DNA of 64,000 nucleotides from Sphaerolaimus hirsutus (lineage: Eukaryota; Nematoda; Chromadorea; Monhysterida; Sphaerolaimidae). A model generated the notes under the pieces. That model saw only the letters and a list, made by a program, of their open reading frames with translations. It did not search any database and was not told the DNA's origin. Positions 3,051 to 58,400 of the stretch are shown here, piece by piece. The DNA is taken from assembly GCA_964036195.1 (NCBI GenBank), contig OZ038454.1:1426001-1490000 (forward strand), written 5' to 3'. The translations under genes and the position numbers were made by a program. The first letter of the stretch is position 1; every line of letters starts with the position of its first letter.

Positions 3051-4379
3051 TGTGATGAAGCCACCGAAGTCAGCGTCTTCTACCACCGAATCCGGCTGCT
3101 TCAAGACCGTAGTGAGGAACGGCCTTTAGAGTGGTTGATTTCCCGTTGTTGCCGAACGTCCACTTGTCGACAGCCAAGTTGAGTTTATTTCGTAGTTGTG
3201 TGTTGAAAAGGGGTTTCGAGATTGTTTCAGGTACTTTATTTTGATCAGATACAGCGTGTTACAAAAGCGCAAAACCTAGCGAGCTTCCTAGTCGAAGTTT
3301 CTATCGCTAGCTTATTTTGTTCACTTGGGGTGAGTCCGCAGACTGCAGACTTGAGTTGGGTCAGAAGACTGAAGTAAAAACTTCCAAGTAGCTAAGATAC
3401 GGAAATCACGTATAGAAAAACAGTTACAGTAATTTCCTAATATGAATGCACAAATAAACCACTAATATAACAATAAAACACAATTGACCGAAACAGTTGG
3501 CTTAATTTTCGCGTGCATACATTCAAATAATTATGGTAAAGAAATACCAGGTACAAATTGGGTTAATAGAAAACTATTAATCTTACGAGGTGCGAAGTCG
3601 GCAAACTCGGCCGATTTACTAATTTGCTTCAATTTGTCAGAAAACATTGACGCACATTGGAACTAATAAAATAGGGTTCGAAAACTGTAAATAGTAGTGT
3701 AAATGTTCCTAATGACGTAAATAGAGCTGGGTATATTCGATATAATAATAGTAATCACTTTCTGGAAACGTATATTTTATAATGGATAAATTGGGACTTA
3801 TTCGAGGTAAATGGGTATTGTAATTGAGCAGGGTTTATAATATATTCAGCTTGAGCAGGGTATTATAGATAATGTCAAAGTAAAATAATATAACTGATGA
3901 ACAGGGTTATAATAATTATGCCTACGCGAAGGGCTTTGTAAACACGCACAGTAAATGCTAGTTGCACACAGGGCACTATTTCTCCATTAGGACGCTGGCC
4001 TAGATAATTATGCAGCACGTAAATATTTACAAGATTTGACTTTTGTAAACTGCAAGTAAACTATGCAAATGTATATATAATCATGATCAGAAAATTACGG
4101 CGAGTTGAATGAGCCTAATTTTATATTAATACACCTAATAACAACTTATTTGACTTTTTAATCTAAACATTCCACATAAACCTATCAATAACTTATAGAA
4201 CACTTTCCTAATCGAATATTCTCCATGGGTAAATAATATAGTGCAGGAAATACAATTTGCGTGGTAAATAAATATAGTGCATGAAAAGTAAATAGTGCAA
4301 ATAAGTAAATGTGCGAATATGAACCTAATTATCAATTCTCTGTATTTCTTTATCCATCCATTTTGCCACGGTCAGCACA
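3051..4379 (+). repeat. Left long inverted-repeat arm (LTR-like, TG...CA) of the integrase-envelope unit
   Basis: The arm starts TGTGATGAAGCC at 3051 and ends GGTCAGCACA at 4379. The same sequence is present in reverse complement at 8566-9385. The outer 120 bases (3051-3172) match 9264-9385, and the inner part from about 3693 to 4379 matches 8566-9250. About 520 bases (about 3174-3692) exist only in this arm, as an insertion here or a deletion in the other arm. The TG...CA ends look like an LTR, but the two copies are inverted relative to each other. No short target duplication is visible at the outer ends. Confidence 0.8.
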
Positions 4380-4421
4380 AAGCGCAACACAAACGACAGT
4401 CAGAGTGTACTGTCAGAAATC

Positions 4422-10518: not shown

Positions 10519-10900
10519 ATGAAAACATACTACAGTATTTGAGGGACAATCTCACAAGTAATGATAAATCAGATGAGGATACACTTATAGTCGGAGACTT
10601 CAATGGGCATATTGGCAATGACTCGGTAGGGCTGACTCATAATTTGCCTGAACTGAAATTAATGAAAACGGTAGACTTGTGAGAGAATTTTTACAACAAA
10701 CTAACTTATGCCTACTTAACAAATACATGTGTGGAGAGTGGACATTTCAGAGACGTAATGCACACTCAGTAATTGACTTGTCTATCAAACTCATGGGATT
10801 TGATGACAGGAGGTTTCATTGATGAAATAGGAGAATTCAGTACCATTCAGTCAGATCACAATGCTATGATACTGACCCTTGGTTATGGAAACAGAATCAA
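10498..10900 (+). pseudogene. LINE endonuclease fragment, frameshifted
   Basis: Pieces of an apurinic-like endonuclease appear in successive frames. First comes LIVGDFNGHIGND (about 10585-10623). After a frameshift near 10630-10660 there is NENGRLVREFL and WTFQRRNAHSVIDLSI (10660-10790). In another frame there is IQSDHNAMIL (about 10846-10876), which carries the usual C-terminal SDH. The N-terminal half of the domain is missing. The order and motifs match the endonuclease of LINE elements; the breaks show that this copy is not functional. Confidence 0.75.
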
Positions 10901-17019: not shown

Positions 17020-17219
17020 CGGGGCAGTCCCATACCGTGTAAAATGCCCTCTAAAATGTCAAATGTTATGTCATGCAAAGTGTCAAAAGTCATGGAAAAT
17101 GTCCTCTTGCAAAATGACAACTCGGTTGCTATTTTGCAGGGTATTTTCCATGACTTTTGACACTTTGCATGACATTTGACATTTTACAGGGTTGTTTACA
17201 CGGTCTAGGACCGGCCCCC
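17020..17219. mobile_element. Family I inverted-repeat element, copy outside stonin
   Basis: Left arm begins GGGGCAGTCCCATACCGTG. The right arm ends CGGTCTAGGACCGGCCCC. Internal arms read AAATGTCAAATGTTATGTCATG and the complement. Same architecture as the element that forms a stonin intron at 36863-37057. Confidence 0.7.
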
Positions 17220-22800: not shown

Positions 22801-25800
22801 TGGATCTGCTGGTTGATAAAATAAGAATTTTAGATTACTACACCCATAGGCCCTACACATACTAAACACCTTCCCGATCAAGTCCGGCCGCCTATTTTTT
22901 TTTCTCTTCGCAGGCCATATCTCCGGTTGTGGTAGGGGTGGAAAACTAAAACTTGGGTGGTATATAGGCGCAACCCCCCACTACCCCTCATGAATAAATG
23001 GGGCAGCAGCGATTCACTATAGTGGGGGGCGCTGTATATGTGAAAAAAATTTACGGCGTTTTCACTGTTCCATACAGGTCCGGCCCCCACTTGATATCTT
23101 ACACTTCGGGTGCCGTATCTCCAGCTGTGGGAGGGGTATAATTCTAAAATTTTTGGGGATGTGTCGCCAACACCCCTCCCCTACTATACACTGGCCAGGC
23201 GGTTTTTGGCAACTCACCACAGTGTGGGGCGCAGCGCTAAAAGTTTGTTAAAACATTACGGTCCCACACAAGTCCAGCACCTAATTGCATTTAAAAAAAT
23301 GAACACTTTTGTGTTGTTTTAACACTTAAGTGTTTGATAATGTGACATAAATATGAAATATCCTCTAAAACCATCTTATCGCACCCAAAACAGCCCACCA
23401 CATGAACCCCTCCCACCAGGTGGCGGACAAAAAATCACTTTTTACAACTTTTTTATTAGACACTTGAACGGCTGGTTTACAATAATTTATAGGGGAGGGT
23501 TAAAGGTATTAAGTTGTGTAAAAAATCTTACCTCAAAAATGCCTTCATAAGAAAATTTGCTGGGGGTGAATTCCAAATTGTAAAAATGACATCATTGCAG
23601 GAACAAAAATAGGCAAAATTTACAATTTTAAATTTACCCCCAGCAAATTTTCTTATGAAGGCATTTTTGAGGTAAGGTTTTTTACACAATTTGAAACCTT
23701 TAACCCTCCCCTATAAATTATTGTAAACCAGCATTTCAAGTGTCTAATAAAAAAAGTTGTAAAAAGTGATTTTTTGTCACCCACTTGGGGGATGGGTTCA
23801 TGTGGTGGGCAGTTTTAGGTCGGATAAGATATTTTTAGTGGATATTTCATGCTTATTTCACATTGTCAACCACATTAGTGTTAAAACAACACAAAAGTGT
23901 CCATTTTTTAAATTCAATTGGATGCTGGACTTGTGTGGGACAGTAACATTTTAATAGATTGTAAACGTTGCACCCCACACTGTGGTGAGTTGCCAAAAAC
24001 CGCCTGGCCAGTGTATAATAGAAGAGGCGTGTTGGCAACACATCCCCAAAATTTTAGATTGATAGCCCTCCCACAGCTGGAGGTACGGCACCCGCAGTGT
24101 AAGAAATCAGTTGGGGCCGGACCTGTGTGGGACACTAAAAAAGCTGCAAATTTTGATTGCACTCGGCGACCCACCCAGTAGGGGGTCGCTGCGACCCCTT
24201 CAATTCATGCGAAGTAGAGGGGGGTTGCGCCAAGTTTCAGCTTCTGGCGCATCCTAGAACTGTAGATAGGACATCAGAAGTAAAATAAAAAATTGGGGGC
24301 CGGACTTGATCGGGAAGGTGTTTACTTGACAATGACACCAAACGTCAACTGGTGCCCATCCCAATTCCCAATTCAAAGCTTGCCACAAGTAACACTTCAC
24401 ATTATTGTATGCACATATACCATGCCAACCTTGTACATTGCGCATTACCACGATATTTTCTTCAGCCCCACAGCTTCATTTGCAACATGATTCGTCACTT
24501 TTGCGTTTGAATGTCATTTGTCAGCTTGTCAGCAAGCTTCAAATTTGGATCAGAACAAGTTGACATTTGGTGCCATTTTCAATTAGTGTGTAGGGCCACA
24601 CAAATTTTTTTCACAATTTTCACATTTAATACTCAGACATTGACATCCAGTCATCTGTTCCCGAAGAAACTGATTCTTCTGCAAAAGAAATTATGTCGGA
24701 TGAAAGTGGTGAAAGTAAATCATCATTGAATAAAGTAAAACAAAATTGTCAAAATGGGATAGACGATAGAAATCCACTGCCAGAGCCAGTGCAGTTTTCT
24801 GAAGGGTCAGAAACAGAATCAGGTAAAGAGACAAGACAGGGGGAGGTTTGTTGGGTTTTTATTGACATAATTCTTGTGGTAGGTATCTTTGCTTTTCATG
24901 AGTACCTGAAAAAGGACGGTGCACTATTCCGCATTTTGGCCTATTCCGCATTTGGGCCCATCCCGCACATTTAGCTACCCATCCCGCATTTTGGCCTATC
25001 CCGCATCTTGCCGGTGTAATGTGCGAGATAGGCAGTGTGCGTGATGGGTTTGTGTGCGGGATAAGCCAAAATGCGGAATAGTGCACCGTCCTTTTGGAAA
25101 TCCCCATGTGCGCCACACGCGCAACTCACACGCAACGCAAATCACACGCGGCGCATGTCAATTGCCCCCCCCCACAGTTGCCCCCCCATACTTAATTGCG
25201 TGTTGCGCAATTAAGTGATTATTGTTTGGGCAGTTCGCGGTTGGCGCTGATCAATTTAAATATTATCAGCCGTTTACTGCCCACACAATAATCACTTAAT
25301 TGCTCAGGTATTTGCTTATTTGCTTGAAGCCGTATTTGCTTGAATAATCCCCCTGGGGGATTATTTTTTCGTCAGGCATTTTTGAGGGGGGAGCTATTCG
25401 AGGGGGGATCTATGCAAGGGGGGGGGAGATTATTATTTTGTCAAAATTTTCAAACATGTTTGAACATGTTTCAAACAGCCACGTGTGATTTGCGTTGTGT
25501 GTGATTTTGCACGTGCGGCGCACATGGGGAGTTCCATTCCAAAAGGATGGTGCACTATTCCGCATTTTGGCCTATCCCGCACACAAACCCATCACACACA
25601 CTGCCTATCTCGCACATTACACCGGCAAGATGCGGGATAGGCCAAAATGCGGGATGGGTAGCTCAATGTGCGGAATGAGCCAAAATGCGGAATAGGCCAA
25701 AATGCGGAATAGGCATGCGCCCTGAAAAAGTTCAATCTGTAAAGTGATTCATCCAAGCACTTAACTAGATATAGAGAACCAAATTTGTAAGATTTGGAAG

Positions 25801-28052: not shown

Positions 28053-28423
28053 TTATACTTGATATCCATAACCAGCTAAATCAATTTTGATTTGCAAAGG
28101 TTTCTTCTCCTTTTCATCTTCAGATTCTGATGAGGAGCTGCTTTCTTCTGATTTAACTTTCTTTGGCTTTTTGCCCATTTCAGCCTCAGAAAAGTTTATG
28201 CGATATCTGCATGGAATGTCTTAAATGCTTTACAGTATGAAAATGCAAAATGAGTTAAAATGACAGACCCTTCGGTGATATCTGCCTTGTCAACATTCAA
28301 GTCAATTACTGGTTTTACTGTTTCTTTCTGTGGTTTTGTTTGTACCTCTTCAGGATTTAACTGTTTTGTGTCACAAACTGCATCAATATCCAAATCTGAC
28401 TCATGGGTGTACTCAATTTCAAC
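28053..28423 (-). CDS. STON: Stonin exons 32-33, end of domain and charged tail
   Basis: Exon 32 28269-28423 begins VEIEYTHESD, completing the domain, and continues as an acidic linker. Exon 33 28053-28206 encodes a Lys/Ser/Glu tail (KKPKKVKSEESSSSSESED) and ends in DLAGYGYQV with TAA. The donor of exon 32 is GTCTGT, weak. Confidence 0.82.
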
Positions 28424-31400
28424 CTGGAAAAGATTGGAATTTGTGATGTAATTTGTAAAATTAGTATGCTAGCCACTGCCTAAAATTTGTATGTTTTTCA
28501 CTTTGGAAAACCAGCAAAGCAAACTAAATGCCTACCCACCTCCTGTCTATATCTAGCCACATAATGGACATATTTCTCAACCAAATCCGAATCATCGTGA
28601 TCCTCAATGCTGACCGATCTGACCACTGTGTGGCTGGCCGTTGACAGTGGCATGGTGTACTCCACTTGGGTGTGCGGCATGAATGTCTCCGGCATCAGAT
28701 CGAACGAGGATAGCTTGAAGTGACACCTGGGGGTGAAAGTTGGCTGATGTGGTGACACAGGTTTTATTTACTGATTGGTGATTAGTTGTTGATTGTTTTT
28801 TTAATGAGGATAGATATTTGTTGTTTTGTTTTTTCTTCAAAATTTTGATTTTAAACTGAATTTTCCTCAGTGGCAAGTGCAATTTAAGACTGTCACAGAC
28901 ATGTGATAGTAATCCAGGATTATGCACTACTGTCATACAGTACACATTACAATTTTGGTTACAGAGAACAAATGTCTAACATAATTAATTTTAGAAGGAT
29001 ACCATCATAGGAAGATTGAAAGAATGTGTTCTCTTTTGGCTCCTTTGTGCAATGTGCAGGTGTAACCCAAGTGTAAATACAATGCGCCATGGAATGCATT
29101 GCACTATTTTTATATTTACCATATTTACCGGTTTTGAGTACTTTAAGGCATATTCCTTACTCTGAATTTCATGAAAATTTCTAATGAAATAAAAATCCTC
29201 CTCGAAATATCCCCCAGTGCGTCATTTCAAGGAAATGCAACTCACGTTAACAAGTGTGTCTTGTAGGCACCGTGGTGTTTTTCAGGCAATTTGGCAATGC
29301 GCCAAACTAACGATCGAGTAATGTGCTCGTATTTAGCATCACCTGAAATTATTGGCAGCTCAAATTTAAATAAAAACATTTTTGTGTAAATTTTTTTTTA
29401 AACTCACCAATTGCCACTTCAATCAGTGAAGGTTCTGTGGACTGGACAGCGCCAAGTAGCTTGTCTTTCAGATTCTGAAAAATGTGATTTTGGTGGCATT
29501 ATTATACTCCGATTACTTTACACCCTGCACGCGTGGTTCCCGCTGGAAGTGTGCCAATGATGGTTAGCGCGTGCGAATTTCATAAAAAGATGACAAATTT
29601 GATTGTTGTTATAATGTTATTCATTAACATGTTCACATCGATGAATTTTTTCACCTTTTTACAGAAATCGCATGACTTAACAATCATTGGCACGCTTCCA
29701 ACACGAGACATAAATCAGTGCGACGGCAGAGTATCATGTACGCCGAGTATACCATGGGCCACACCAGCCTCTGTAAAGTGTCAACTGTCACAAAGTCAAA
29801 AGTCATATTAAATCCACTGTAAAATTTCAAATGTCATGCAGTGACAAAAGTCATGGCAAATGCTGTGTAAAATGTCAAGTGCCATGCAAAGTTATTGCCT
29901 GTTATTTTTACTGGATTCCTGACATTTTTCATGACATTTCACTAACGATGGCAAAAAAAGATTCGAAAATTCGAAAACATTTTCGAATTTTCGAATTTTT
30001 TCAGAATTTTCGAATTTTTATTTCACCCCTAGAAAAAACACTTAAAAATCGATTTATTTTTCAAAAAATTCGAAAATTTGAAAATTCGAAAATTCAAAAA
30101 TAGTTTTCGAATTTTTCAGGAAATTCAAGGCAACAAAACACACCGTTATGTTCAACGTACTAAATAAATCGACAATTGATACGCGGCGCGTATGGAAAAG
30201 CGAAACGTAACAAAAAAAAACGTTGAAATGTCATCCACGGCAGAAGAGGCAGACTTTGACATATCCGTTTTTATACTGTATTTCCTCGAAATATCCCCCC
30301 TCGAAATACCCCCTCAAAATTTACACTATTAATTTATTAACCCCCCTTGAAATACCCCCCCCCCCAATTTGGTGTATAGAGAATGTAATGCAGTTTTTGT
30401 GATCTGGGAAACACAGAACACACATTAAAAACAATGAGTGTGTTGTGTAGAACAGGGTTTGTACCATCTACGTACTTATATAAGTATATAGAGTCTTAAA
30501 AAAGACTATTTTTGTTGCATTTTTTGACATCTGTGATTCTTGACTACAAACAACAATTTATACTGAGATATCGAAAAATTTCTGGCAAAATTATACACAC
30601 CCCTCGAAATACCGACCCTCGTTTACCCCCCCCCCCCCTCTGAAAAAATAATACAGTATTTGATGCCAATTTTGTATTTTATGCTGATATTTTATTTGAC
30701 GCCAATTTTTTAATCATTGTTTTTATTGCCTTCACTCTGTTGGTGAATTAAATGTATCAATGTGTGAATTAAATGTATCAATGTGTGAATTAAATGAAGA
30801 AGCAGCACACTGGTCTGCATAACTCCTTCCACCATTTTTAATGCTAATTTATGGTAAAAATAAGGTTATAACAACTGAGCAGAACATGAAGACAGTCCAA
30901 ATTCTGTGTTTAAAGCTTCAGATTCAATATTTTTCCAAAAAGATTCAAAAATTATTTGAAAAAATTCGAAAACTAGCCAAAAAAATTCAAAAATTGCCAA
31001 AAAAGATTCGAAAATTCGAAATTCGAAAATTAAATTCGAAATTCGAAAATTATTTTGAAGAAAAATTCGAAAATTCAAAAATTCATTTCAGAAAAAACAC
31101 TTAAAAATTTAAATACTTTTTTTTCGACTGTTTGCCATCGTTACATTTCACAGGGCATTTTACATGACATAAGACAGTTTGCATGGCATTTCTCATATCA
31201 CAGGACATTTTATATGGTCTGGGAGTGGCACCTGCTGCTTTTCAGTGGTCACAAAAATTGAAAATCAACTTTAACGCAACAGAACCCACCTTAACTTTAC
31301 CCGGTCTCCTATGTGTAGCATGCACGCTGCCCACACCCCAATGTCTCTCCTCCCTGAACAAATAAATCCACGATTCCGGTACGGGTACCCGAATTTCTAT

Positions 31401-34400
31401 TTTCTCCACAGGCACTTGGTGGGCTTTGCGCGACTTGAATCCGGTAACCATGGCTGATATTCGGATGTCCACCTGAGGGGGCGGAGTTTAGGCATTGGGG
31501 GTGATTGGATGGTGATGTTTCTTTTTGCTTACATTTTGCGTTATATTGGTGCTCCATCCAATCACCACTCATCAGTAACGATGGCAAAAAAAAATTCGAA
31601 AATTCGAAAACATTTTCGAATTTTTTCGGAATTTTCGAATTTTTATTTCACCTGTGGAAAAAAACACTTAAAAATCGAATTTTTTTTTCAAAAAATTTGA
31701 AAATTCGAAAATTCAAAAATTCGAAAATTATTTTCGAATTTTTTTAAGGAATTCAAGGCCACACAAGTGTATAGAAAACGTGAACGACAAAAGCTGAGCT
31801 TTGTGATCCGGGAAATGCATAACACATTTCAAAAACAATTACTGTGTTATGTTAGAACAGGGTTTATACCATTTATGCACTTAAATAAGTCTATATAGTG
31901 GTGTGTTTTGTTGGCAACATAATAACCCCCCACGAAACCCCCCCCCCCCCTCAAAATTTCCACCCTGAGAAAATAAACCCCCTGGGGGTAATTCGCGGAA
32001 ATAAGGTAGCAGATTGACTGTATGGTAGCATTTTTTGTGGAGGGGCGGGCTGTAGCCACGGAGCACGTGGTTATAACTCGGGAACCGCTCAGCGAAAATT
32101 GCTCAAATTTGAATATGATATGGTTTGAGGTCAGGGCTAAAAGGTAAATCAGAGGTGACTCTATACGACCGCGCTGACTAGGGATAGCGTGTTTGAAAAA
32201 TGTATTTTTTCTTGATATTTTGGGTGTCACCTGATTTGACCTAAGAAATGAACTGAAAGGAACTCTCCACAGCTGTGTGATGATTTTTAAAGTTAAATGG
32301 CAAAAATCAGTTGAGAAATTAATGGCTGAGTGGTTGAGGTGCAGATTTTGCATTTTTCTGGCAATGCGCAAAAAGTTTGAAAAATTTACTTCTTTCAGAT
32401 CAATCTCAGGTCTGGGTATGGAGTATAGAGTATAGAGCATATAGTCGCTTCCAATTTACCTGTTATCCCTGACCTGAAACGATATCATATTCAAATCTGA
32501 GCAATTTTCGCCAAGCAGTCCCAAGTAATAACCACTTGCTCCATGGCTAACCGCCCCCTCCAGTGAAGTAATTGCTGCAGATTTGTGCATTTTGCATTTT
32601 TTATAGTTGTTTTCCTCTTCCCTGTGTTAAATCAAACTGGTCCACATAAGTTCCACCATTTGTGATGCTAAATTACTGTGAAAATAAGGTTAAAAACGTA
32701 AAAACTGTCTTAATTCTGTGTTAAAAGGTTTAAATTCAATGCTTTTTTCAAAAAAATTCGAAAACTAACCAAAAAAATTCGAAAACTGCCCAAAAAATTC
32801 GAAAATTGCTCAAAAAGATTCGAAAATTCGAAAATTCAACAATTAAATTCGAAATTCGAAAATTAATTTGGGGAAAAATTCGAAAATTCGAAAATTCAAT
32901 TTAGAAAAAAACACTTAAAAATTAAAATACTTTTTTCCGGCGGGTTTGCCATCGTTACTCATCAGACACACTAGTGAACGGGATGTAACGATGGCAAACC
33001 CTCCAAAAAAAAGTATTTAAATTTTTAAGTGTTTTTTCCCAAATGAATTTTCGAATTTTCGAATTTTTCCTGAAATTAATTTTCGAATTTTGAATTTAAT
33101 TTTCGAATTTTCGAATCTTTTTTGGCAATTTTCGAATTTTTTTGGCCATTTTTCAAATTTTTTCAAATAATTTTTGAATTTTTTTGGAAAAATATTGAAT
33201 CTAAAGCTTTAAACACAGAATTTTGACTGTTTTGGAAGTGGCTATACTCGGCAGACGTGCTAATCTACAAATAGATATGATTTATATCTTTGGCTGGCAG
33301 ACAGCCAACTGAAAACTTGTGAACTGATTCACAACTGCACTCCATTTCATCCTGACTCCGAACCAGTTCAGTCAGCCGTAAGTTCACTGCGGACTGCGGT
33401 TATGACGTCATGATGGAGTGTTACCACCAGAAAAATGTAGGGTGTAATTTCGCCCGAGTATAGCACACTGAGCGTACTCAGTGCATACAGTGCTAACTGC
33501 ACAAAATATGGGTACTTCTCAAACCAATACTCAAAACCACTCTTATACTCCAGCGACATTACACCTACAATGAAATCTACCATAACCCATCTGAATAAAA
33601 GAACAAACAAAAAAATTTTCATCATATTTATCAAAGCAATTTGATTAATATGATGAAAAAAATTTATGTTTGTTCTTTTATTCAGATGGGATATGGTAGG
33701 TTTCATTATAAAGTGTAATGTCGATGGAGTATATCTTTGATCACATCTCTTTTACTTATAAATATGTGCAGTCCCAGACACCTGTAAAATGCTCTGTGAA
33801 ATGTCAAATGTTATGCAAAGTGTCTAAAGTCATGGAAATGCTGTGGAAAATGGCAAATATGTTTGCTATTTTTCCAGGGCATTTTCATAACTTTTAACAC
33901 TTTGCATGACATTTCACATTTTACAGGGCAGTTTACATTTCAACGTTTTTGGGCTTTTTTCTGTTTTGTTTCGCTTTTTCATAAGCACCGCGTATCAATA
34001 TTCATTGCATTTAGTACGTTGAACTTAAGAGTGCCTTGAATTGCCTGAAAAATGCGAAAAGTATTTTCAAATTTTCGTATTTTTGAATTTTCGAATTTTT
34101 TGAAAAATAAATAGATTTTTAAGTGTTTTTTCTAGGGGTGAAATAAAAATTCGAAAATTCCGGAAAAATTCGAAAATTCGAAAATGTTTTCGAATTTTCG
34201 AATCTTTTTTTGCCATCGTTAACGGGATGGGAAAAGTGACATTTTTCTGATTCACTATATCTGTATAAATTTGAGTGTAAGCAACATTGAAGTCTCCCAG
34301 TTTTTTTTCGCATACGACGGGGTCCTTCTTCACATCTTATGGTTTGGTAAGGGTAAATATAACGTTTTCTCTTTTTAGTTATAAAAGACATCAGTTATCA

Positions 34401-37400
34401 AGGGTAAACAGTTTGAATCTGTCTCAGTTGATCGTTTTTGTCACGTAAATAGAATAAAAATTAGAAAATGTTTACCTAATTTTTGAATTATTCTTTGCTA
34501 TCGCTAAATAGATGTCATACGATATAATGTCATATAGAAGTCAAACGATGTATATGATTACTCTGCGGACTGCGTGCTATGCATTTTTCAAAATGCAACA
34601 CTCCATCATGACGTCATCATTTATAAAATCAAAAATTGTCCTAAAAAAGAAAAAATTATTTCAGGCACAAAATATGTTGAACTTGTTCAACCTTTTTATT
34701 TTAAAACACCTTTAAGTGAAAGTGTGTGAATACCGTATTTCCTCGAAATACCCCCCGGGGGGTGATTGTTTCAGAGTGAGAATTTTGAGGGGGGGGGGGG
34801 GGTTAAACGAGGGAGGGGGCATTTCGAGGGGGCGGGGGCTTATTATTTCGCCAGAACTTTTTGAAATTCCAGTACTAAATTGTCGTCTGTAACGTACGCA
34901 AACGTAGAAAAATGCAACAATAACCGCTATATATAAGAGTCTATTGACTTTTGTCTAAGTTTGTAACAATGTTCTAACGTATTTTAACAATTCATTGTTT
35001 TAACGTGTGTGTTGCATTGCCCGAATCACAAACCGCAGTTTTGTTATGTACGTTCTCTGTACACTCAATTTGGGGGGGGGGGGGGGTATTTCGAGACGGA
35101 GGGTATTTGGAGCGGGGGGGGGTGTATTTCGAGGAAATATGGTAGGTAAGTATGGCGTTGGTGCGCTGGCGTGTAAGACATAAGTATTTGCGGGTGCATA
35201 CTATGCTCTCCAAGAAGTATACACGATTCCAACCTTTGATCCAGCAATATTTATCACAGGTCTAACAATCAACGGTAGTTCCCTGGCCCTGGGCGGACGC
35301 ACTCTGAAACGCATCACTTCGAAGAAAGTTGCATCTGGCGGCATAAATCTGGAAAATATATTAAACTATTTATAGGATAAATCAAATGAAATTATTCGCA
35401 CCTGCGCGCTGTAAAAAGATATACCGTATTACCTCGAATTATCCCCCCCCTTGAATTGACCCCCCCCCCCTCGAATAAACCCCCCCTCAAAATGGGCGTG
35501 GGAAATAATAAACCCCCCCTCGAAATACCCCCCCCCCCTTCGGAATGATTTACGTCACGTACATAATAAATACGTCATGTATGCAATGTACATGATGTAT
35601 ATTACTGTTAATTTACATTGCAGCTACACATAGACCAGTTTGTGTAGCTATCTACGTTTTTATGTCCAAATATATCCTGTTTGGACACATTTTTTACCTG
35701 TTTTGGGTATGAAAATGCCTACTATTTACTACGGTCCTTACGAAAATTTCTGAGGAAATAATAAAACCCCCCCTCGAATAAACCCCCCCCCCTCGAATTA
35801 ACCCCCCCTCAAATTTTGCTGGCGAAATAATAAACCCCCATGGGGGTATTTCGAGGTAATACGGTATATTAATCCCTGAATCGAAATTTTTCAATTGAAT
35901 TTAACGCCCTTTAAACTGAATGTGTGGGACAGAGATTTTAAAAGAAAAATGGCAAACTTATGCTTAAATTGTATTTTTACTCACCCATTGAGTACAGAAA
36001 ACGTAAAGTAACATTTTTTATTTTTACTCATAAGTAAACGTGAGTAAAAAAATAAGACCAAGTAAATAAGCCACTTTCTCATTTAATGTCAAAACGTTTA
36101 CACTCAAAATCACTAATTTTCTTATTTTACTCGATTTTCGCCTCAAGTGTACGTAATGCTGTGATTACAGCTCGGGCATAAAATTGACAGGGCGTAAAAT
36201 TGAGTTTGGGCATAAAATCAATTATAGATGAATGGATAAAGATACGACATTGTTATTTCAGTCAATGAAAGCTTATATGCAGACATTTATTGTGTTCAAA
36301 GCTCATGAGTTTTTTTTAAATCGTACCGGGGGTTATGAATTTTAGCACAATTTTGTCAATTATGCGCTATAAGTTGCGTAAAATTAGGGTGTAAAATTAA
36401 CAAAATTTGCGACAAAATTCATAACTTCTGGTACAATTAAAATAAACTGATGAGCAATGGACGCAAGCAACATCTGCATGTGCGCTTTCTTTGACTGAAA
36501 TTACAACACCATATCTTAATCCATTCATCTGTAATTAATTTTACGCCTGTCAATTTTACGCCCGAGCTGTAATCGCAGCATAAAAGCGAGTACAGCCATT
36601 AATCTTTTTCGGAGGAAACGTAAATGTGTTTATCATATTTTACTGAATTACTCAAGCAAACACGGTATCCATAAATAACACTTGCAATCAAAAATCATAT
36701 GCAAATCATTTTTTACAGCATCAATCAAGAGCAAAAATAAGAATGCAAACTCTTCAATCATTCTTAAACTTCCTCAAAAAAACTATCGACCGCAATATGT
36801 ATCCAAAACTTGTTATCCAACCTTATCATCCTGTCTCTATTGAACAACTTCTTATCCACAATCTGGGGGCAGTCCCAAGCCCTGTAAAGTGTAAAGTAAA
36901 GTGTCAAATGTAAATTCAAATGCAAAGTAAAGTGTCAATTGTCATGCAAAGTTCAGTAATAAAATCGTTTCTTTTTTGTTTTGCTTGACAGTTTACTTTG
37001 CATTTGACTTTACATTTGACACTTTACTTTACACTTTACAGGGCTTGGGATTGCCACCTGGTGCAACTGGACTTCCTCGGATGTGCGTATCCACCTCTCA
37101 GTGTACATGGGCATGATGTCTTTGCGCCGGACCACTTCTGTCCCTTCGCGTCTGTGCATGTGTCGCATTTGTTTGGCATGTTTTTTTGTTTTTTTTAGAA
37201 TGCATTATTGAGTTTTTGAAAAAGTGATTAGGATTCAAACGGGATCACAGTCTAAATTCAGCTAAATTCAGATACTGGGGTTGTCCCTGAGTACAGAAAA
37301 CGTTGAGTAAATTTTTTTACTTTTACTCATGAGTAAACATGAGTAAACGTACTTTTTCCTGGAAAACGTAAAAGTGAGTATATTTTAGAATTGTCAAACC

Positions 37401-40400
37401 AATATTCACCCAGAATCTCTCATTTTCATCACTTTTTGCCTATTTTTAGAAATTTTGGTTGTTAATGTGCTTATATAAACATTGTTAGCTATCTTCCCCT
37501 ATTTTTAGCATATTTTCTCTCTTTTCCATTTGATGCCTTAAAAATCGATAAAAAAGACTATATAAAATACGTTTTCCATACTCGAGTACTTTCAAAAAGT
37601 ATATTAAACGCGAGTACCTACATTAACTTTTTTTGGAGGGAACACTAACATATTTACTCTGTACTCGAGTATACGTATTTTTCGAGTAAAAGTAGGTAAA
37701 CATGTTTGAACAACTATGGCACACTAGTGATGGAATAGCGCCATGGCACGTAAAAATCTTTTTGGCTCAGTGCCAAACATTTCATAATGTGTTTGTAGTG
37801 GAACGCATAAGGAATGATGGCACGCGTGTTCGTTGGGCTGTTTCGTTACTCATAATTGTATAGTGAAAAATCCATATTTTTATCGCCCTTCAAGCATAAA
37901 ACTACCTAAAGGCTAACAAAAACAAAAAAATAGTAAAACGCACCTCTTATCATTTATACCAATCTCCAGAATTGGCATTCCGGACAGAAAAGCCAGACAA
38001 AACAGTCGCACCCTAGCTTTTTGTCCACTCAAAGTCCCATTTGTGTCTACATGCGTCCAGTATTCATCCACTACATGCAGCTGTAAGTTGCGATTCTACA
38101 TTACTGGGTGGCTTAATTGATATGTGAATTTTTATTGATACTGGATACTGAGAAAATAATCTTAGGATTCATTTGATGTGGCTTTATGTATGATTTAGTT
38201 TGAGTGTTGTTTGATGGTACAGTTCTATACCAAAGTAAATGCTCAATTCAATATTCTACAAATGCATTATTCATGCATGCAACTATCACAAAGTAAGGAA
38301 AAGTATATTGCTGATGACAAATTTGTATGACATTTGTCATGACATTCGATACTTTATTGTACACTTTACAGGGCTTGGAAATTGCACCTAATCTCCAACC
38401 CCCAAATCACCTGCACTTCATCCTGCTTATAAACCCTGCACACTTCCCTGTGAGCTGCACATCCAAAAAGGCAGTCTTCCACACTGTGCACCAGGGACAT
38501 CATGTCTCCCAGCTGCAGTGAGCCAAACTTGAGCAGAACTGTCACTGTGGCTTGGTGCTCCAGGGGGAGGCCCACTTTTGTTAGTTCTCCTGGGGGGGGG
38601 GGTATTTGTGGGATTTGGTTTGATGCCAGAGCAAAAAAATGTCTTTGGGATGTGTGTGCTAGCGGGATGGATGGGTGTGACTGTGGAAGAGGGTTCTGTG
38701 AAGACACATGCTTCAATGCTTCATGAGATTTTATGTGCCCATATTCACATGCACAATAATGATTTGGCATGCTTTTCAAACTTTGTTTGGAATATCGGTG
38801 ATTCCAACATGCACCTGGCCCTGGATGCACATTGAAGTGTTTTCACACTGATGCCGCAAAATCAATCTTTGTCCATCAAAAAATGAAGCTTCACAGTAAG
38901 GTATCTTTGCCATGCATCACACAACACTCCCATTTTTGCAGAAAATAACATCATGATGTTTTTGTCAGGCTGAGTCAATGCATATGATACATGAACTGGT
39001 GCAGAAAAACATGATGCTCACCTTGCTTCAACTTGTGTGTTTGACCTGCCCTCACACCAAGCCTCTCCTTGTACTGTACATATTGCAGTTTTACAGTGTG
39101 TATCTTTCCAAAAACATCATACTGTTGCAATGCAACTGCTGACATGCTATAGGATGCCTGTGGAAAAGTGGTAAAACAAAAAAGGTAGACACTTATTTTC
39201 ACTTGGTAGTTTGAAATTGAAGAAAATTGATAATATGCATTTTATCACCAAATATGAGCGGTGTGTCCAATCTAAGTCAAAGTCATACCTGTGATGTTTG
39301 TAAAAATTTGTTTGATTGCACCAGAGTTGGAAAAACGTATTTACGTTTACCAGAAATACCCGGTTATTCGGGTATTTATACTTACGTTTACGTTTACGTT
39401 TTCCAAAAATACCATTACGTTTTGTTACGTTTTCCTGACCAAAATACCCGGGTACTAGCGAAAACGTAAAAAACTTATGATCGTTCACACGTGCAAATGA
39501 TCAAATGGGCCGCACCATCCGCAGCCAACAATATTCTAATGTTTTTGCATAAACTTCACATGTATACATACAAAAAAGCGATGTATGAAAAAAGTGACTG
39601 CACGCTTGCACTTACACATGGAATACTGGGTACATATTCATGAATGTGTTCAAATGCTGAACACAGAAACCTTTTTGTTTGTGGAGCCTTGTGTTTATAA
39701 ATTTTTGTGATGAATTCCAATGACGCCACTTGCAACATAACTGTGAGTAGCACACGTTTTGAAACTGGCAGGGCGAGTGCAAGCTCTGGTGCCAATCCCA
39801 GACTCTGTACGATGCCCTGAAAATGTAAAAGTTTATGCAAATGTCATAACTCATGTAAAATGCCCAGCAAAATGGCAAAGTTTTGCCACCTTCCAAGGCA
39901 TTTTGACTTAGACACTTTGCATGCCATTTGACATTTTACAAGGCATTTTACAGGGTCTGGGACTCACCCAGAATCACCAACGTAGTTGGATTTGGCGGCA
40001 CTTACAACATAAAGTGGTGCGGATGGAGCGATTGACCCATCTAAATGTGAAAATAATGATATTTTCCAAAGCACAATGGCAAATACCTACTGTGTGTAAA
40101 AATTTTATGTTTACGTTTTTTTTACGTATTCCTTGGTATTTTAAAAATACCTTACGTTTTAGTATTTATACTTTTGATTTGGAAAACGTATTTATGTTTA
40201 CATTTATGTTTTCCAAACTTACCAGTATTTGCACAACTCTGGATTGCACAGATGTAAATATAAATAAATAAAAACTTTATTTACAACAATTTTTCTCTCT
40301 CATTTTTACATCAATTGGATTGGATGCACATTTACTGTTACACATAAAAAATATACATAAAAAGTATCAAATTACCAGAATACCAAATACTCACTTGTAA

Positions 40401-43400
40401 AGGTAGCTCATAGAATGGTCTATCCTCAGATTTTGTATTGTAAAGATATAGGGTGTTATCCCTGAGTCTCACAAAACAGGGCTTCCAAAACCTTTCAGTC
40501 ATACTGATCACCTTTTTCTTAAATGGATGTCTATAAAATTATTGAATTTTGTTGTTGAAGTTTAAGAAGGATAAATGTGACTTTTTGAGTGTTTTTACCT
40601 GAGCATCAACTCCCATCCTTCAGCAGTGAACTTTTCAGGGAATGGCAAAAGAGGTTCACTTGTGTCTTGATCAAATAGTTCCTGGTCATCCTAGAAATTT
40701 TATATATACATATACAGAAACATATAATTACTCCAGTGACCTAATATTGGGGATGTGAACTGTGCATTTCAAATTGGCAGAATGCCAAACATGATTAATA
40801 CATGTTATGTGAGACTCTGAGAAAGTACAAGCAATTTTGTTGCTGTTAGAATATCAAACTATAAATGAGTCAAAAATAGACTAACTTTTATATGAAGAAA
40901 ATCATCAGCAAACTGGAACTCTGTTTGATCATCATCATCATTTTCTTCCTTGACTGATTTGTCTAAAATTTATTGAAAATTTTTAACCATAAATATACAG
41001 AATATAAAGTAGCAATGTTGAGAATGGGGAAAATAATTGTGAAGCAATGTTATTCATTGAGTGTTTTCATCTGATTCATTGTCAGAACTTATATCTTTCC
41101 ATACACTCATCTGGTTTTCAGACAATTTCCACTATTTTGGTACGAGTGTTACTATAAATTTGAAAAAAGTGCGAATGTTGGACACTTTTCGCCGCCGTTT
41201 TGGGTGAAAATTGGGTAGGTTGATCATTATAAATATTTGTTAACTTGACGGAATTTTCACTGTATAATTCTATGTAATGGACCACCCCAACGAAATGTGC
41301 ACGTCATCGTTGAGGCGCGCCGCTACAAAAACACATTACGAAATGTTGGCACCCAGCCAAATAAATATATTTGTTAAATAGATTGTTCCCTCATTAAGAT
41401 GTTTCGACTGGAAAAAAACAATCATGGACTCGAATGCAATCCGAATTCGAATTCAAATTCGAATTTTCGACAAGTAATCGTATTTACTCAAGTGCAACAA
41501 AATTGTATAGCGAAAAGTCCGTCATCTCGGACGGTAATATTTACTTCTTTTCGACAAAATTTCACCAATACTACAGGTACTACAGTTTGCTGCTTAATTC
41601 GCATTTTGGAACAGTGCCAAAACGACCGAGAAAGCTTCACAACTACAATATCATGAAGTCCACAGGTCTTCATGAGTAAACCTTTGGAAATACGCGAGTA
41701 GAAACAATATGGCAGTTGGATTGTGTGTTGGTTTTACATTTTTTATTGTTTCAATGTTTTAATTACCTAGTTTTTAGGGAGTGAGTTGTTTTTCATTATT
41801 TTTATATTCCCCTATCTATTTTCATCGTTATTATTTAGGTAGGTATACATACTATAGCTTTTATTGCTTAGAACTTTGCTAAGGAAAACTCTCGAAACGT
41901 AAAGGGGTCGCGGTCATTTATGCTAGTTTGAATTTTTTAAACTGAATTCGAATTTTCTGAACGAAATTTATCAAATCATTGAAAAACTTCTGGGCTGTGC
42001 AAAAACATATAAACTAGGCGGACATGAAGCGATACAACGTTTCTGTACTCAGTTATTCAAACTGGTGTCAGTTCCGCAAATTGAGAAATGCGCTGTAAAA
42101 TGGAAGCAAAATGTAAAACGTAAAATGCAAAAGCGACGTGAAATGCCAAGTGAATTGGCAAAATCGAAGTAAACAACAAATAAAATAGTAATTTCTCTTC
42201 ACTTTTGAAATTTTACTTCTCAAATCACTCCGTGGTTGCCATTTTATTTCTAAATTCATTTTTCTTTTGCCATTTCACTTCTCACTTCTCAATTTGCGGA
42301 ACTGGCCCCTGATTATCAACTTCAAGAAATCGTACAACACGTACAAGAAATCCTTTAGAACACTGTTTATCAAAATGTCGGCCGAGTTTATAAAAACGCC
42401 CAACCGACCATCTTTCTCTTCGCCTCTCTCTTTGTCATTTCCCGTTTCGTCACCCATCATAAAGTCCTCATTCCCATCATCAGTGTGTTCCGCTTGGGCG
42501 CGTGCTTGTTCGGCCCTGATCTCGGCGTCCCGTAGAAGTTGGTCGGCTGTTTTTACGGCGAATGGATCGTAGGCCTGTGTGAGTGGAAATTGTTGGAGTT
42601 TTTTGCTGGGTATTTTTTAGCAATCGCGGGAAAAAATGACGCGGTAAGTTTCAGTAAACTTATGCTTCCCAATCCTTCACAAAAAGTAGGGCTTGGGGTT
42701 GAGATCTCCAATCGGGGATATGGGGGATAACCCGCTCAATTTTGGCTGCATTCCCCTGAACCCACCAATCAGCTAGCTTTCTACTCATGTTGTAGAGTTT
42801 TTGTCAACTTTTACCCTTTAGGTTTGTACAAATATAGGATAATATGTACGAAAATTGCTAATTTTCATACATTTTAAGCCATAAGCCATTTTAATCCATT
42901 CATTCATTTTACATCTTCATACATTACATTTCATCCATTCGTAAACCCCCATCTTTACAAATGTAAATGGGATAGAAGCGACGCCAACTCGGGCCGGCTC
43001 GCTCAATAACTCAAATCTTGAAAAACTCAAATCTTCCAATAAATCACCGGGTCCGACCTATTACGCATGTAAACCCATCGCGCATGTAGAGCCATTATAG
43101 ACACATTTTACCCACATGGGTAGGAAAGGGTAGCGGGTAACCCCACCCCGTACTGCCTAGCTCTTTCCCAGAGGACATTTGTTTTGGCTCCTTCTCCTGA
43201 ACACCCCCCGCCCCACGCAAATTGCCTGGCTATCTGGAGCGCTTTTGAGCAAATTGTCATAACGTTCACCCAAAATCGCTAATTTTCATACTTCTTAAAA
43301 CTCGGCGGACATTATGGAAGTCAATGGTCTAAGGAATTTTTGTACGAGTGCGGTATAAACTAACGATAGGGTCATATGTGAATTTGGCCCACGTCCAAGT

Positions 43401-46400: not shown

Positions 46401-49400
46401 GGTATTCAGATGTTCAAGTTCATGTGTGTGTAGACTTCAGTTGACTGAACTCCAGGGAACTTTAGACAGAAATAGTGAAGCATTCACTTCACATGTTCAG
46501 GGTTGGTTTTAGTAAAATTCTTTTTACTAAAATTGTAGTACAATTGTATATAAATTGTATTTTATATTTATATTATTCTTAAATTTTCCATTTTATTTTT
46601 ATTTTTTATGTCAGATCGTGACCAGAATTGATTTTTGTAAAATTATTTTTACTAAAATTGTAGTAAAATTGTATAAAAATTGTATTTTATTTTTATTTTA
46701 TTCTTCAATTTTCTATGTTATTTTTATTTTATTCTTCAATTTTCAATTTTATTTTTATTTTTTCTGAGATTCTGCCAACCCTGCACATGTTTAATAAGCA
46801 CTCCCAGACTCTGTAAATTGTTTAAAGTCATGCAAAGTTTGAATATCAGCAAAGTCATCCAGGTAAAATAACTGGTAAAAATACAATAAAATATGACAGG
46901 TAAACAATTTTACAGGGTCTGGTGATGGTATTTGGTTCTAGACTGTTTAAATCATGTTTAACAAGTCACTCAAGTGAAGCTATACACTTATCTTACACTC
47001 CCCCCCCCCCCAAACAAAAAAAAAAAACTTGTAAAAAGCACCACATACCCAGGTGGAGGTGGCCTTACAGGTAGTGCCTTTGGAGGTGGGGGTCTTTTTG
47101 GTTTTGATTCATTGTGCTTTTTGCGGAGTTCTTCCTGCAACACCTCTGAAATTGGCTTCCATTCCTGTGTGGGATAAATTGTTGAATTTTTGAATTTTTG
47201 AACTGTTTTTTTTCTGGTTGATTTTGGAATTTGAAGAAATATTATGAAAATGTGTAGTGTAATTATTTGAATTGGCTCTGGACACCTGCAACATGTTATT
47301 TAACAATTTGTTCAATGTCATGTAAACTGCTTGATAAAATGTTCTATTGTATTCTATGAGACATTTGACTTACATTTTACACAAGATTTGAAAAAATAGT
47401 GTGACATTTCACATTTTGCATAATATATTACAGGGTGCAGGACATGCCCCAGGCTTATTTTCTGGTTCAGACAAGTTATTGCTTAAAGTAAAATGAACCA
47501 TCAAGTGTGGACATAAGTTGAATTTCCTACTTACCTATTATGTTTTCTATACCATATAGTGCCATTGAATGATTGAGTTATTCAATTTTGCTTGGGTGGC
47601 TTATTCAAATCCATACACAATTTTGCTGTACACACCAGGTAACCAAATTACATTTTTAAAATTAAGTAAAGTCAAAAAATCAGCTTGAACACATTTGAGT
47701 TTACTCGAGCAACTTATTTTTACTTTCCATCAACCGCAGTTGATGAAAACCTAATTCCAGTTTACTCAAATGCCATTCAAAATTGATTTCTGAGTTTACA
47801 AAAAAATTAGTTAACCAGCAGTAAACTAGTGTGTGCAGCACAAATATGAACTCACCTTCCCAGGCGTAATTGGAGTGCCTTCCCCCTCTACATCTGGTGA
47901 TTTTATGTCTTCCCCTGGCACTGTGCCATGCATTTCAATTTCATATTGTTGTCTGTAACTTTTGACCTTCTCCAGGGCACTGGAATCTTTTATGTGCTCG
48001 ATGTTCTCTTTGGTTTTGGTCATTGTTGAGTCGATTTTTTCCTGTTTTGGATGTTTTTTATAGACATTTTGTTCATTTACCGTATTTCCTCGAAATACCC
48101 CCCCCCCGTTTAAATCCCCCTCAAAAATCTCACTCTGAAAAGATAAACCCCATGGGGGTATTTCGAGGAAATACGGTATTACAAGCTTTGAAGAGAACAA
48201 AGAATATTTAAGCAGTCTAGTTGTGTAGTGCCATTCAATTTGTATACTAGAATATTTATGGAAAGCATAAAGGCGAGTGAAACATTTGAAGAATCTCATT
48301 AGTGGTGTTAATTCCGCAAGTTGACATGAAAAAAAACAATAAAATTTATAGGTGATGAGTCAAGTCAACGCCATAACTGATAAGCGAACTGAAAAGTAGT
48401 TATGCCAGTTATATGGTCAGTTTGATTTACCACTTTAATGTCCGGAATGTTTGACACTAAAAATTGCAATGTAAATACCGTATTTGCTTGAATAATTCGC
48501 AGGGAAAGTACAGGGTGGCCCACGTCAGCCGCACGGTTTCAATTGGCTCCCAACACTTCAATTTTGGATAGAAATGGCTGAAATTTGGTATGAGGGTAGA
48601 TAAATGTACCCAATTTGTTATGTTAAGTGCACGGTTTCATATCACAAGATTTTGCGGTGAACGTGAAGCACAGTTTCATATTCACATGTTGAAAACAGTC
48701 CCAATTTAGGTGGTCCTGTGGAGTCACGTTTTTTGCATATGATGTGATAAATGTGACAAATCTGGTGATATGATTGTGTGCGCTTAACATACTCAATAGG
48801 GAACATTTATCTGCTGCCATGCCAAATTTAGGCTATTTTTATGAAGAATTGGTGATTTGGTAGACGATTGAAGCTCATTGGACAGTTCAAACACGTACAA
48901 AACTGTGTTTCACGTTCCGACATGAATTTTTGTTATGTGGAACCGTGGACTTAACACAACAAATGGGGTACATTTTTCTACCGACATACAAAATTTGAGC
49001 AGTTTTCATTCAAAATTGACGTGTTGGGAGCCAATTGAAACCGTGCGCCTGACGTGGGCCACCCGATATAATTGCTCCAGACTTTTTCTGGAGGAACTTT
49101 TCAAGATGGAGAATTATTCAAGCAAATTTGGTATTTATACCAAAAATTATGCAAATTGATTTACACCAACTTTATGCAGGGCCAATTTTACAATTGTTTT
49201 AATCGGATAAATTTGGCACACCTGCATTTTATCAAATTGATCTTTCCAGTCATCAGCTTTGTGGCTGCCTGGAGGAGGCGGTCTCACTGGGGGTGGCCTA
49301 AATAAAGAAAAGCACTGTGGAATTTGAATGATTGTATCCAAAAATTATCTAGCTAGTTGACATTTTATATTAATATCGTTTTTCAGTATAGTTAGTTGCA

Positions 49401-55400: not shown

Positions 55401-58400
55401 GGCGAAATACCCCCTCGAAATACCCCTTTCGTTTAACCCCCCCCCCTCAAAATTCTCACGCTGAAACAATCACCCCCCCCCCTTCGAGGAAATACGGTAG
55501 TTCTTTTGTAGGCAGAATAAATCAACCACTTTTTTAAAATTTTATGTTAAACCACTCCTTTTATAGTCCAATTTTACCATACCAACCAGACTCTTTCCCA
55601 GGCACTCTAACTTTCATTCCAGTACCCAAAAAGCTCTGCAGTGATTTCTGCATGTAATCCATGACGCCTCCACTTGTACCCTCTTCGTTTTTGCTTGCAG
55701 TTGCATCGTGGCTGTGATTTTGGATACTTTTTGATGGATCTTGCATCAAACTTTGAGGCACCAAGGCTTCAGCACGGTTGATGAAATCTTCCAGAACTTC
55801 TAGTTGCACTGGGGTGGTGCATCTGTGAGATTGGTGATTGGTGATCGGTTGTGGGCTGTGTAAAATGCATGTGCAAGTTGGTATGTACATGTAAAGTGTA
55901 AAATCTTAATAAATAATGTAAACTGTAAAATCATGCAAAGCGTCTGAAGCAGAGTTGGTCAAATACTGGTATTTTTGGAAAACGTGAATGTAAACGTAAA
56001 TACCTTTTCCAAAATGAAAGTATAAATACTAAAACGTAAGGTATTTTTAAAATACCTGGGAAAACGTAAAATAAAATGTAAACGTAAAAAAATTATTACT
56101 GTATTTCATCTAATGGGAGGGCGCCCTTCAATTTTTTACCAACATTCTATTATGGAGACGCCGTTTTTGGAAGCTGCCCTTCTATTTTTTCGCCAGTTTT
56201 TCAAACAATTTGTTACGTTCTGTCAACGTTTTCCCAAGTGTTATGTCACAAAAAATTATATTATGGCGATTCATAGAGTTCTTTCAACATTTGATTTTCA
56301 AAAAGCACAAAATTAATCCACAAAAGCCACTAAATAACAGCATCCGCTGACTTTTTTTAACGCATTTGGCACAATTCGAGTTTGGGAAGTAATACATAAA
56401 TACATAATACTCTGCACTGCAGGTGGGGTCGAACCATAGTATAATTTGAATATTGAATACCTATACCTTTTTTGAAAATACGGCTTCTGTGGAGGAAAAG
56501 TGTGCGCTGGCGCGCAAAATTTTTAAGGTTGTCGGAAATTTATGGCGGAAGTTGTGAGACCCAAAAAATTTCGGCAAAATGCAACGTTTTTTACGTTTTC
56601 TCTGGTACCCGGGTATTTCGGTCAGGAAAACGTAACAAAACGTAACGGTATTTTATGAAAACGTAAACGTAAACGTAAGTATAAATACCCGACTAACCGG
56701 GTATTTCGGGTAAACGTAAATACGTTTTTCCAACTCTGGTATGAAGTCATGTGAAATGTCCGATAAAATGACAATTTTTTTTTACTGGTCATTTGAAATT
56801 TTTCATGACATTTTACATGACTTTTGACACTGTCATTTTACATTTTACAGAGCATTTTGTAGGGTCTGATAGCGGATGCGGTGTATGTGATTTACATGTA
56901 CATCACTCCAATTTATGCTGATGACTTAATTTCCCATTTGCACACGCAAATTGATTTACACCGGCAGTGTTTCACTTTAAAAGTATTGAATAAAATATGA
57001 AAAATAAGTGGTGGCTGAAAAATCTTTTTGATAAATTAAGATACTTTTCTTTCTGTATTTGGGCTGAATGACCCCTTTCACAATTAGTCGAATCTGTACT
57101 CTATCAGAATAATTCCAGTAAACTCAAATGCCATTCAAAGTTGATCAATGAGTTTACAATTTTTTTAGTTTACTACCAGTCAACTAGTGTGCGCAGTGCC
57201 TTGGGTTCAAATCAAACGGGATCCCGATCACGAATCCGGCAAATTTTCGGGATTTTACTTTCCCGATCCCGAAACCCCAATCCCGGTCCCGATAGCGATC
57301 CCGAAAACTCAAACAACCAATCCCGATCCCGAAAAATCAAACCCGTTTCCCGGTCCCGATGGCGATCTCGAAATCTCAAACAACCAATCCCGATCCCGAA
57401 AAATCAAACCCGTTTCCCGGTCCCGATGGCGATTCCGAAATCTCAAACAACCAATCCCGATCCCGAAAAATCAAACCCGTTTGAACCCTAGCAGCGCCAA
57501 TATAACCTGGGTCTCTGCGTCGCCTGCACCTCGTACTGTTTCCTCAGCTGTTTCTGGTCGATGTCTGGGAACTGTTTCACCAGCGGCAAAGCCGTCAACT
57601 TTGGTTTCGCTTCCGGAATTAAAATTTCCGGGTCCGGATCTGAACCGGACGCGTTTTCCGGTGAAATCGATTGAATTTCCAGATCTAGTTCACTTTCTTC
57701 CGCTGGCGTTAATAGATGGGACTGCGGGGGGGGGGGGGGGGTAATTGCACAGGGAAAAATTGACTGGGGCAGTCCCGCACACTGTAAATAAGATTATGAA
57801 TGAATTTTCTTTAACATAGCCGAATAGATTAACTAGTTTTAATGATGGGTTTATGTCGCAGTCAATTTCTCACGCTACTCTAAATTCATAAATTTATGGT
57901 AACATAGGCACATACATCCCAGATCGTGTAAATGACAAATGTCATGCAATGTGTCCAAAGTCATGGAAAATGCGATGCCCTGTAAATTGTAGAATGTCAT
58001 GCAATGTATCAAATTCATGGAAAATGTAATGCCCTGTAAATTGTAAAATGTCATGCAAAGTGTCGAAAGTCATGTAAAATGCCCTGTAAAATGACAAATG
58101 TAATGCAAAGTGTCGAAAGTCATGTAAAATGCCCTGTAAAATGAAAAATGTCATGCAAAGTTCCAAAGTCATGCAAAGTTCCAAAGTCATGCAAAGTTCC
58201 AAAGTCATGCAAAATGCCCTGGACAATGGGAAATGTAAGTACGTTGCATGAAATGTGCCATTTTCCAGGACATTTTACATGGTCCGGGGGTGCCGCGAGG
58301 TGCCGTTAAGTGTCTCAAGAATGAATACCTGCATTGTTGAAAAATACATTGGTCGCATCAGTTAAACTAACTTGCGATTCATCTTGTTCATTCGTTTCCA

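Follow-up and report, generated by a model that had tools for sequence, protein, structure and literature searches.

A palindromic transposable element exactly fills, and probably gave rise to, an intron of a nematode stonin/UNC-41 gene

We analyzed a 64-kb stretch of DNA (the whole stretch is referred to here as the window) that bears a stonin/UNC-41 (stoned-B) gene on its minus strand, apparently a nematode gene for a protein of synaptic-vesicle recycling. One intron of this gene, intron 25/26 (exon numbers 25 and 26 are those of an earlier, sequence-only reading of the same DNA), was confirmed to be a single palindromic element whose boundaries coincide with the splice sites. We consider it probable that a MITE (i.e., a non-autonomous inverted-repeat DNA transposon) inserted into an exon of stonin/UNC-41 and became intron 25/26, with the tip giving the GT of the donor and a far CAG giving the AG of the acceptor. 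The origin of new introns is an old question, and the stonin intron is a still recognizable transposon, with its source directly legible. The intron and its parts are listed below.

36863..37057, minus strand: intron 25/26, 195 bp, phase 0, GTGGCA...CCCCCAG, filled by the element together with the terminal CAG (from the sequence and the spliced frame)
36866..37057, minus strand: palindromic MITE (family I), 192 bp (from the inverted repeat, tip pattern, and fold)
36985..37057, minus strand: inverted-repeat arm on the donor side (from the repeat alignment, where the arm is 36985-37058)
36866..36938, minus strand: inverted-repeat arm on the acceptor side (from the repeat alignment, where the arm is 36865-36938)
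37058..37060, minus strand: CAG before the donor, last codon of exon 25, possible first copy of a target duplication (ambiguous with the splice consensus)
36863..36865, minus strand: CAG at the acceptor, which supplies the AG, possible second copy of a target duplication (ambiguous with the splice consensus)

The tips of the MITE are GTGGCAATCCC at the donor side and GGGGCAGTCCC (reverse complement) at the acceptor side. Complementarity of the arms (36865-36938 and 36985-37058) was 95% over 74 nt, and a second alignment (77 aligned positions, 6 gap positions) gave 94%. The folding energy of the intron RNA was -109 kcal/mol, compared with -35.5 ± 4.1 kcal/mol in 200 dinucleotide-preserving shuffles (z, -18), none of which folded as well (0/200). 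Mirror-image ends were specific to intron 25/26 among the 12 introns of the modelled region, in each of which the first 40 nt were compared with the last 40 nt. Intron 25/26 had a mirror-end score of 65, its 200 letter shuffles reaching at most 16. The other 11 introns scored 8 to 22 and none of them beat the best of its own 200 shuffles; the highest of these scores (22, intron 29/30) exceeded the 95th percentile of its shuffles (20). The best mirror matches of these 11 introns do not begin at both ends.

Regarding the exact ends, the palindrome begins with the donor GT as its first dinucleotide and ends with GCCCC, followed by the acceptor CAG, placing its end either at the acceptor G or three bases short of it. 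CAG is present on both flanks, i.e., before the donor and as the acceptor. Should CAG represent a target duplication, the element would correspond to 36866-37057 (192 bp), the last three bases of the intron would be the second CAG, and the two 11-nt tips of the 192-bp element agree at 9 of 11 places. The sequence-only reading had described the 195 bases as one complete family I element with mirror-image ends, the donor GT being its first dinucleotide and CAG lying at its far edge and before the donor. All of this agrees with our analysis, the length becoming 192 bp under a target duplication; the arms, which it had said to pair for about 80 bases each, do mirror each other (94 to 95%), over a shorter length of about 74 to 77.

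The gene itself was modelled as follows.

28254..40690, minus strand: 13 modelled exons of a stonin-like C-terminal region (a stop-free spliced frame of 544 codons)
40690-40599, 40530-40395, 39157-39022, 38589-38411, 38080-37944, 37151-37058, and 36862-36822, minus strand: exons 1 to 7 of the 13 modelled
35348-35234, 31472-31290, 29474-29408, 29342-29246, 28726-28540, and 28423-28254, minus strand: exons 8 to 13 of the 13 modelled
37058..37151, minus strand: exon 25, ending ...EVQLHQ, last bases CAG (from tblastn with nematode stonins, the spliced frame, and the AP-1 mu alignment)
36822..36862, minus strand: exon 26, 41 nt, IVDKKLFNRDRMI(R) (from the open frame and the AP-1 mu alignment)

The model spans the C-terminal part only, and the outer end of its last exon (28254) is arbitrary. 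Both marks of a stonin/UNC-41 gene, stonin homology and a mu-homology domain, were found: the Pfam mu-homology domain matched (PF00928; 1e-20), as did AP mu chains of PDB, and the best protein match had an E value of 9.6e-132, with proteins named stoned-B or UNC-41 among its nematode matches. Among the first protein relatives listed, 47 of 48 bear nematode names and the remaining one is unnamed; the first twelve, eleven of which are named nematode proteins, are 54 to 62% identical over 75 to 80% of the query region. A quick tree of 28 rows placed the window gene within Nematoda (SH-aLRT of 97 for the clade and of 90 for the fork of the window gene itself), on a long end branch (0.59). The segment 39843-39612 was discarded as an exon because the flanking exons join without it.

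An unexpressed locus, or a misassembled or decaying copy, in which the "intron" would be a gene-breaking insertion, is very hard to credit here. The window is repeat-rich and contains 200 N, as such an account would have it, but the 13 modelled exons all belong to one open frame, all 12 introns of the model are GT-AG, and the region retains the identity given above to the first twelve listed proteins, named nematode proteins in all cases except one.

Exons 37151-37058 and 36862-36822 code for neighbouring parts of the stonin/UNC-41 mu-homology domain. Searches with nematode stonins by tblastn matched exon 25 and the exon after exon 26; exon 26 itself had no match among those listed. The AP-1 mu chain (PDB 4emz) aligned ungapped over the junction HQ|IV. 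The end of exon 25 at 37058 and the start of exon 26 at 36862, as claimed by the sequence-only reading, are thus backed by tblastn (for exon 25), by the open frame, and by the ungapped 4emz alignment.

Splicing at the outer sites is predicted to restore the coding sequence, with no residue gained or lost. Over a range reaching 12 nt into exon 25 on one side and 15 nt into exon 26 on the other, 13 GT/AG pairs keep the frame without a stop, and exact excision alone (1 of 13) keeps the length of the protein. Scored with a table built from the other introns of the gene, the outer donor reached 7.0 (range of the gene's 11 other donors, 1.9 to 12.1; leave-one-out) and the outer acceptor reached 5.8 (range of 13 others, 2.4 to 9.5); i.e., the outer splice sites of the element score like the gene's own. 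We fetched 176 homologues, of which 11 do not cover the site; the 165 that do are all free of insertions and deletions within 4 residues of it. The window protein carries a one-residue insertion about 7 residues upstream of the junction, and the junction is untouched. The stable hairpin pairs donor bases 3 to 6, and a donor-like GAG|GTGGAT inside exon 25 scored 9.0, above the outer donor. Two further features within the element bear on its splicing.

36882..36891, minus strand: inner acceptor-like site CACTTTACAG, 8.75 versus 5.8 for the outer acceptor (splice-site table)
37010..37012, minus strand: first in-frame stop (TAA) upon intron retention, after 15 codons of the element (translation)

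The inner site lies 19 nt ahead of exon 26 and, given its higher score, could be used with another donor, such that the element would be spliced only in part and would add residues; alternatively, the transcript would be retained and truncated. Four frame-keeping pairs use CACTTTACAG and would add 3, 14, 18, or 21 residues. An insert might also be sterically tolerated: in an Anisakis relative, the AlphaFold model (mean pLDDT, 65.6) places the site in a turn, two residues past a strand. The donors of these four pairs, however, score at most 2.0 against 7.0 for the outer donor, none of the 165 homologues has an insertion, and retention meets the stop after 15 codons; partial splicing or retention therefore appears decidedly improbable. 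An argument that the site lies within a strand, which would have disfavoured exonization, was dropped in view of the turn in that model, and the structure does not decide on exact splicing.

The presence of introns in relatives was assessed with protein fragments from unannotated contigs, in which homology stops where an intron begins. The test took 48 of the 56 matches of one search, leaving out the 8 that were named from an annotated source and all matches of the main protein search. Of the 48 fragments, 39 run across the site of intron 25/26, none break at it, and 9 do not reach it. Two introns upstream, at C/D, the counts are 25 spanning and 5 broken. In two of these five, unrelated residues precede C/D, the homology begins there, and it continues across the 25/26 site: P0145 (closest named row, Auanema; 75%) and P0150 (98% identical to a Meloidogyne protein). 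They look like nematode sequences of genomic type that share intron C/D and lack intron 25/26. Three other nematode-like fragments (P0122, P0123, and P0138) cover the 25/26 site and C/D and break at neither.

Many of the spanning fragments are arthropod-like, and some may be transcripts. Intron 26/27 (35349-36821, minus strand; 1473 bp), which is not the element, was unbroken in all 38 fragments covering it, so that being absent elsewhere is not peculiar to introns made by the element. The absence of intron 25/26 from the fragments of relatives fits a gain and is no proof of one. On whether relatives lack this intron, the check proposed with the sequence-only reading, the 39 spanning and no broken fragments agree with absence, and the likewise unbroken intron 26/27 and the many arthropod-like fragments limit what they show. 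Intron 26/27 is in its own right a second candidate for a recent intron, next to the 41-nt exon 26 and without mirror ends.

Seven family I copies with recognizable tips (12 tips) were found in the 64-kb window. The 19-nt tip pattern (up to 3 mismatches), drawn from the first-found copies, occurred 10 times in the window and not at all in four resampled windows; two weaker partner tips were then added to give 12. The intron element is short (192 bp), is one of multiple copies, has terminal inverted repeats, and has no coding capacity, as befits a MITE. The six other copies, together with one intron that holds a copy, are as follows.

17021..17217, minus strand: E2, arms 89% alike, outside modelled exons (tip pattern and arm alignment)
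39789..39969, minus strand: E3, arms 81% alike, inside intron A/B (tip pattern and arm alignment)
38081..38410, minus strand: intron C/D, which holds the E4 tip and at which five fragments of other animals break (fragment test and tip pattern)
38331-38387, minus strand: E4, recognized by its tip only, which starts 23 nt into intron C/D from the donor end (tip pattern)
31150..31231, minus strand: E5, single tip (CAG|GTGCCACTCCC), in intron 28/29, lower end approximate (tip pattern)
46795..46931, plus strand: E6, degenerate, outside modelled exons (tip pattern)
57910..58296, minus strand: E8, internal tandem repeats, outside modelled exons (tip pattern)

Arm likeness was highest in the intron element (94%), followed by E2 (89%) and E3 (81%), the only copies in which it was measurable; the arms of E6 and E8 did not align. 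The in-window copy best matching the intron element is E4 (85% over 48 nt). E3, E4, and E5 are within modelled introns, and E2, E6, and E8 are outside modelled exons; only one of the seven copies, that of stonin intron 25/26, was seen as a whole intron. The three intronic copies look like insertions into existing introns, where other intron sequence persists (E3 is flanked by >400 nt of intron A/B on each side), whereas none is left at intron 25/26. E3 had seemed promising as a further element-made intron because it begins G|GTGAGT in gene orientation (donor score, 9.9), and it was rejected because the opposite end scores poorly as an acceptor (-2.1) and because the copy lies within an intron. 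Another candidate copy, E7 (57768), fits the first tip pattern and not the second and was discarded.

Several other repeats and open frames were noted in the window. An AT-rich recurrent repeat, with a translation like KFENSKIRKF or NFRIF, occurs at several places between about 29900 and 34336 and makes up a second abundant family of repeats, lying within the introns of the stonin gene and around them. Inverted repeats lie at 48702-49069 and 50514-50881 (368-nt arms, 96% complementary, 1444 nt apart) and at 24924-25099 and 25537-25712 (176-nt arms). By eye, an open reading frame of 618 codons that is cut by the window edge (2-1855, minus strand) is gag-like with zinc knuckles; two distant matches to it with PF03564 were among the best 8000 candidates scored, and it looks like part of an LTR retrotransposon, perhaps BEL/Pao. 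Also by eye, an open frame of 1339 codons (4329-8348, plus strand) is integrase-like in its first part and envelope-like in a later part, and one of 629 codons (10876-12765, plus strand) resembles a non-LTR reverse transcriptase.

Since family I copies lie inside other introns of this intron-rich gene (E4 in C/D, E3 in A/B, and E5 in 28/29), an older intron may have stood at the 25/26 site, into which the MITE inserted, with the remaining old sequence then lost and the element left alone. Loss of such an intron in relatives would be conceivable because the fragments show no break at intron 26/27 either. We nevertheless regard this course of events as unlikely: no remnant of an old intron is found on either side of the element, in contrast to the >400 nt around E3 and the 23 nt before the E4 tip; the deletions would have had to stop exactly at both tips; and an intron at this position is seen in none of the 39 spanning fragments. 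The sequence-only reading had called intron 25/26 an introner candidate. For the single intron this proposal is strengthened by the coincident ends, the unchanged protein, the splice scores, and the lack of breaks in the 39 fragments; as a claim about a family it would need more than one intron, and 1 of the 7 copies in the window is seen to be a whole intron.

We infer that the insertion itself made the intron, probably in the following way. The MITE would have landed at CAG within ...CAC CAG ATT GTG..., the expected pre-insertion site being an uninterrupted ...CACCAGATTGTG... with a single CAG, and would have turned into an intron at once or nearly so. Its donor-side tip, which starts with GT, would form a CAG|GT donor with the exonic CAG ahead of it, and the far-side CAG, most simply a 3-bp target duplication, would become the acceptor. 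Once the element was spliced out, the old reading frame would be back, with no amino acid added or lost.

Evidence for the target duplication cannot come from the flanks. CAG ends 11 of the 12 introns and 3 of the 12 upstream exons, with intron C/D having both, and the CAG/CAG flanks are thus close to what splicing alone gives here; we rejected a proof of this kind as circular with the splice consensus. A survey of introners likewise warns that an AG before the donor is indistinguishable from a duplication if it matches the splice consensus (PMC9860276). Among PHIS transposons (PIF/Harbinger, ISL2EU, Spy), the NuwaI group is described as having 5'-CWG-3' target duplications and tips that are usually GGG (PMC4482050). 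For comparison, the intron element has CAG at both flanks, identical to the splice consensus, an acceptor-side tip of GGGG, and a donor-side tip of GTGG. As counted by eye, CWG stands at the expected place by 4 of the 12 family I tips (background, 3.2%), but by only 2 of 10 once the intron element is omitted. The tips start with GG in 4 of 12 cases, with GT in 4, and with neither in 4. A further difference concerns the hosts given there for NuwaI, which comprise bony fish, a beetle, a crustacean, a mollusc, and an anthozoan and include no nematode (PMC4482050). No transposase was seen with the family I elements of the window. The link to NuwaI is a lead, given that CWG falls from 4 of 12 to 2 of 10 tips without the intron element and that the tip starts are mixed.

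If that lead is followed, a MITE that targets CWG and has a GT tip would, when inserted in the proper orientation at a CAG of the sense strand, bring about a ready-made CAG|GT...CAG| intron, the target preference supplying both AGs. The existence of a nematode introner family of such CWG-targeting (NuwaI/Harbinger-like) MITEs, one tip of which starts with GT, is a tentative proposal that we rate as rather doubtful. If true, it would be the first recognized transposon source of new nematode introns, and a simple rule, testable in one genome, would tie the target preference of the element to the creation of splice sites.

Formation of an intron by insertion is a known kind of event, and the present case is possibly a first for nematodes. 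Among the literature matches listed, which were mostly titles and abstract openings and lay outside preprints and most subscription journals, there was no report of an introner or a transposon-made intron in nematodes. The tunicate Fritillaria reportedly has MITE-derived introns with largely non-canonical splice sites. Those introns and the stonin intron are alike in being animal introns from inverted-repeat elements, and they differ in that the stonin intron is GT-AG.

For Caenorhabditis, a study reports 168 gained introns for which no source sequence was found, with flanking exons unchanged in 166 of the 168 and 3- to 5-bp direct repeats enriched at the ends (PMC9169325). It also recounts an older claim that 28 of 122 gained introns resemble other introns, most of the 122 being later disputed as losses (PMC9169325). 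The stonin intron shares with the Caenorhabditis gains that it is a GT-AG nematode intron with the flanking exons kept; in contrast to them, its source element is recognizable (PMC9169325).

The introner survey describes families of 5 to over 2,000 copies per genome; among animals and land plants it reports introners from just two groups, and the stem "nematod" appears nowhere in its main text (PMC9860276). If more introns of the genome analyzed here prove to be copies of family I, nematodes would join the two animal groups with introners given there (PMC9860276). Family I departs from the surveyed families in that one intron is known for it, as opposed to 5 to over 2,000 copies per genome (PMC9860276). 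It is like introners in that a small non-autonomous element fills an intron exactly and that the length of the mRNA is predicted to be unchanged, as in most families of the survey (PMC9860276). A Chrysochromulina type reported there brings its own 5' splice site and relies on the duplicated target for the 3' one, which is the same origin of splice sites as that proposed here for the stonin intron (PMC9860276).
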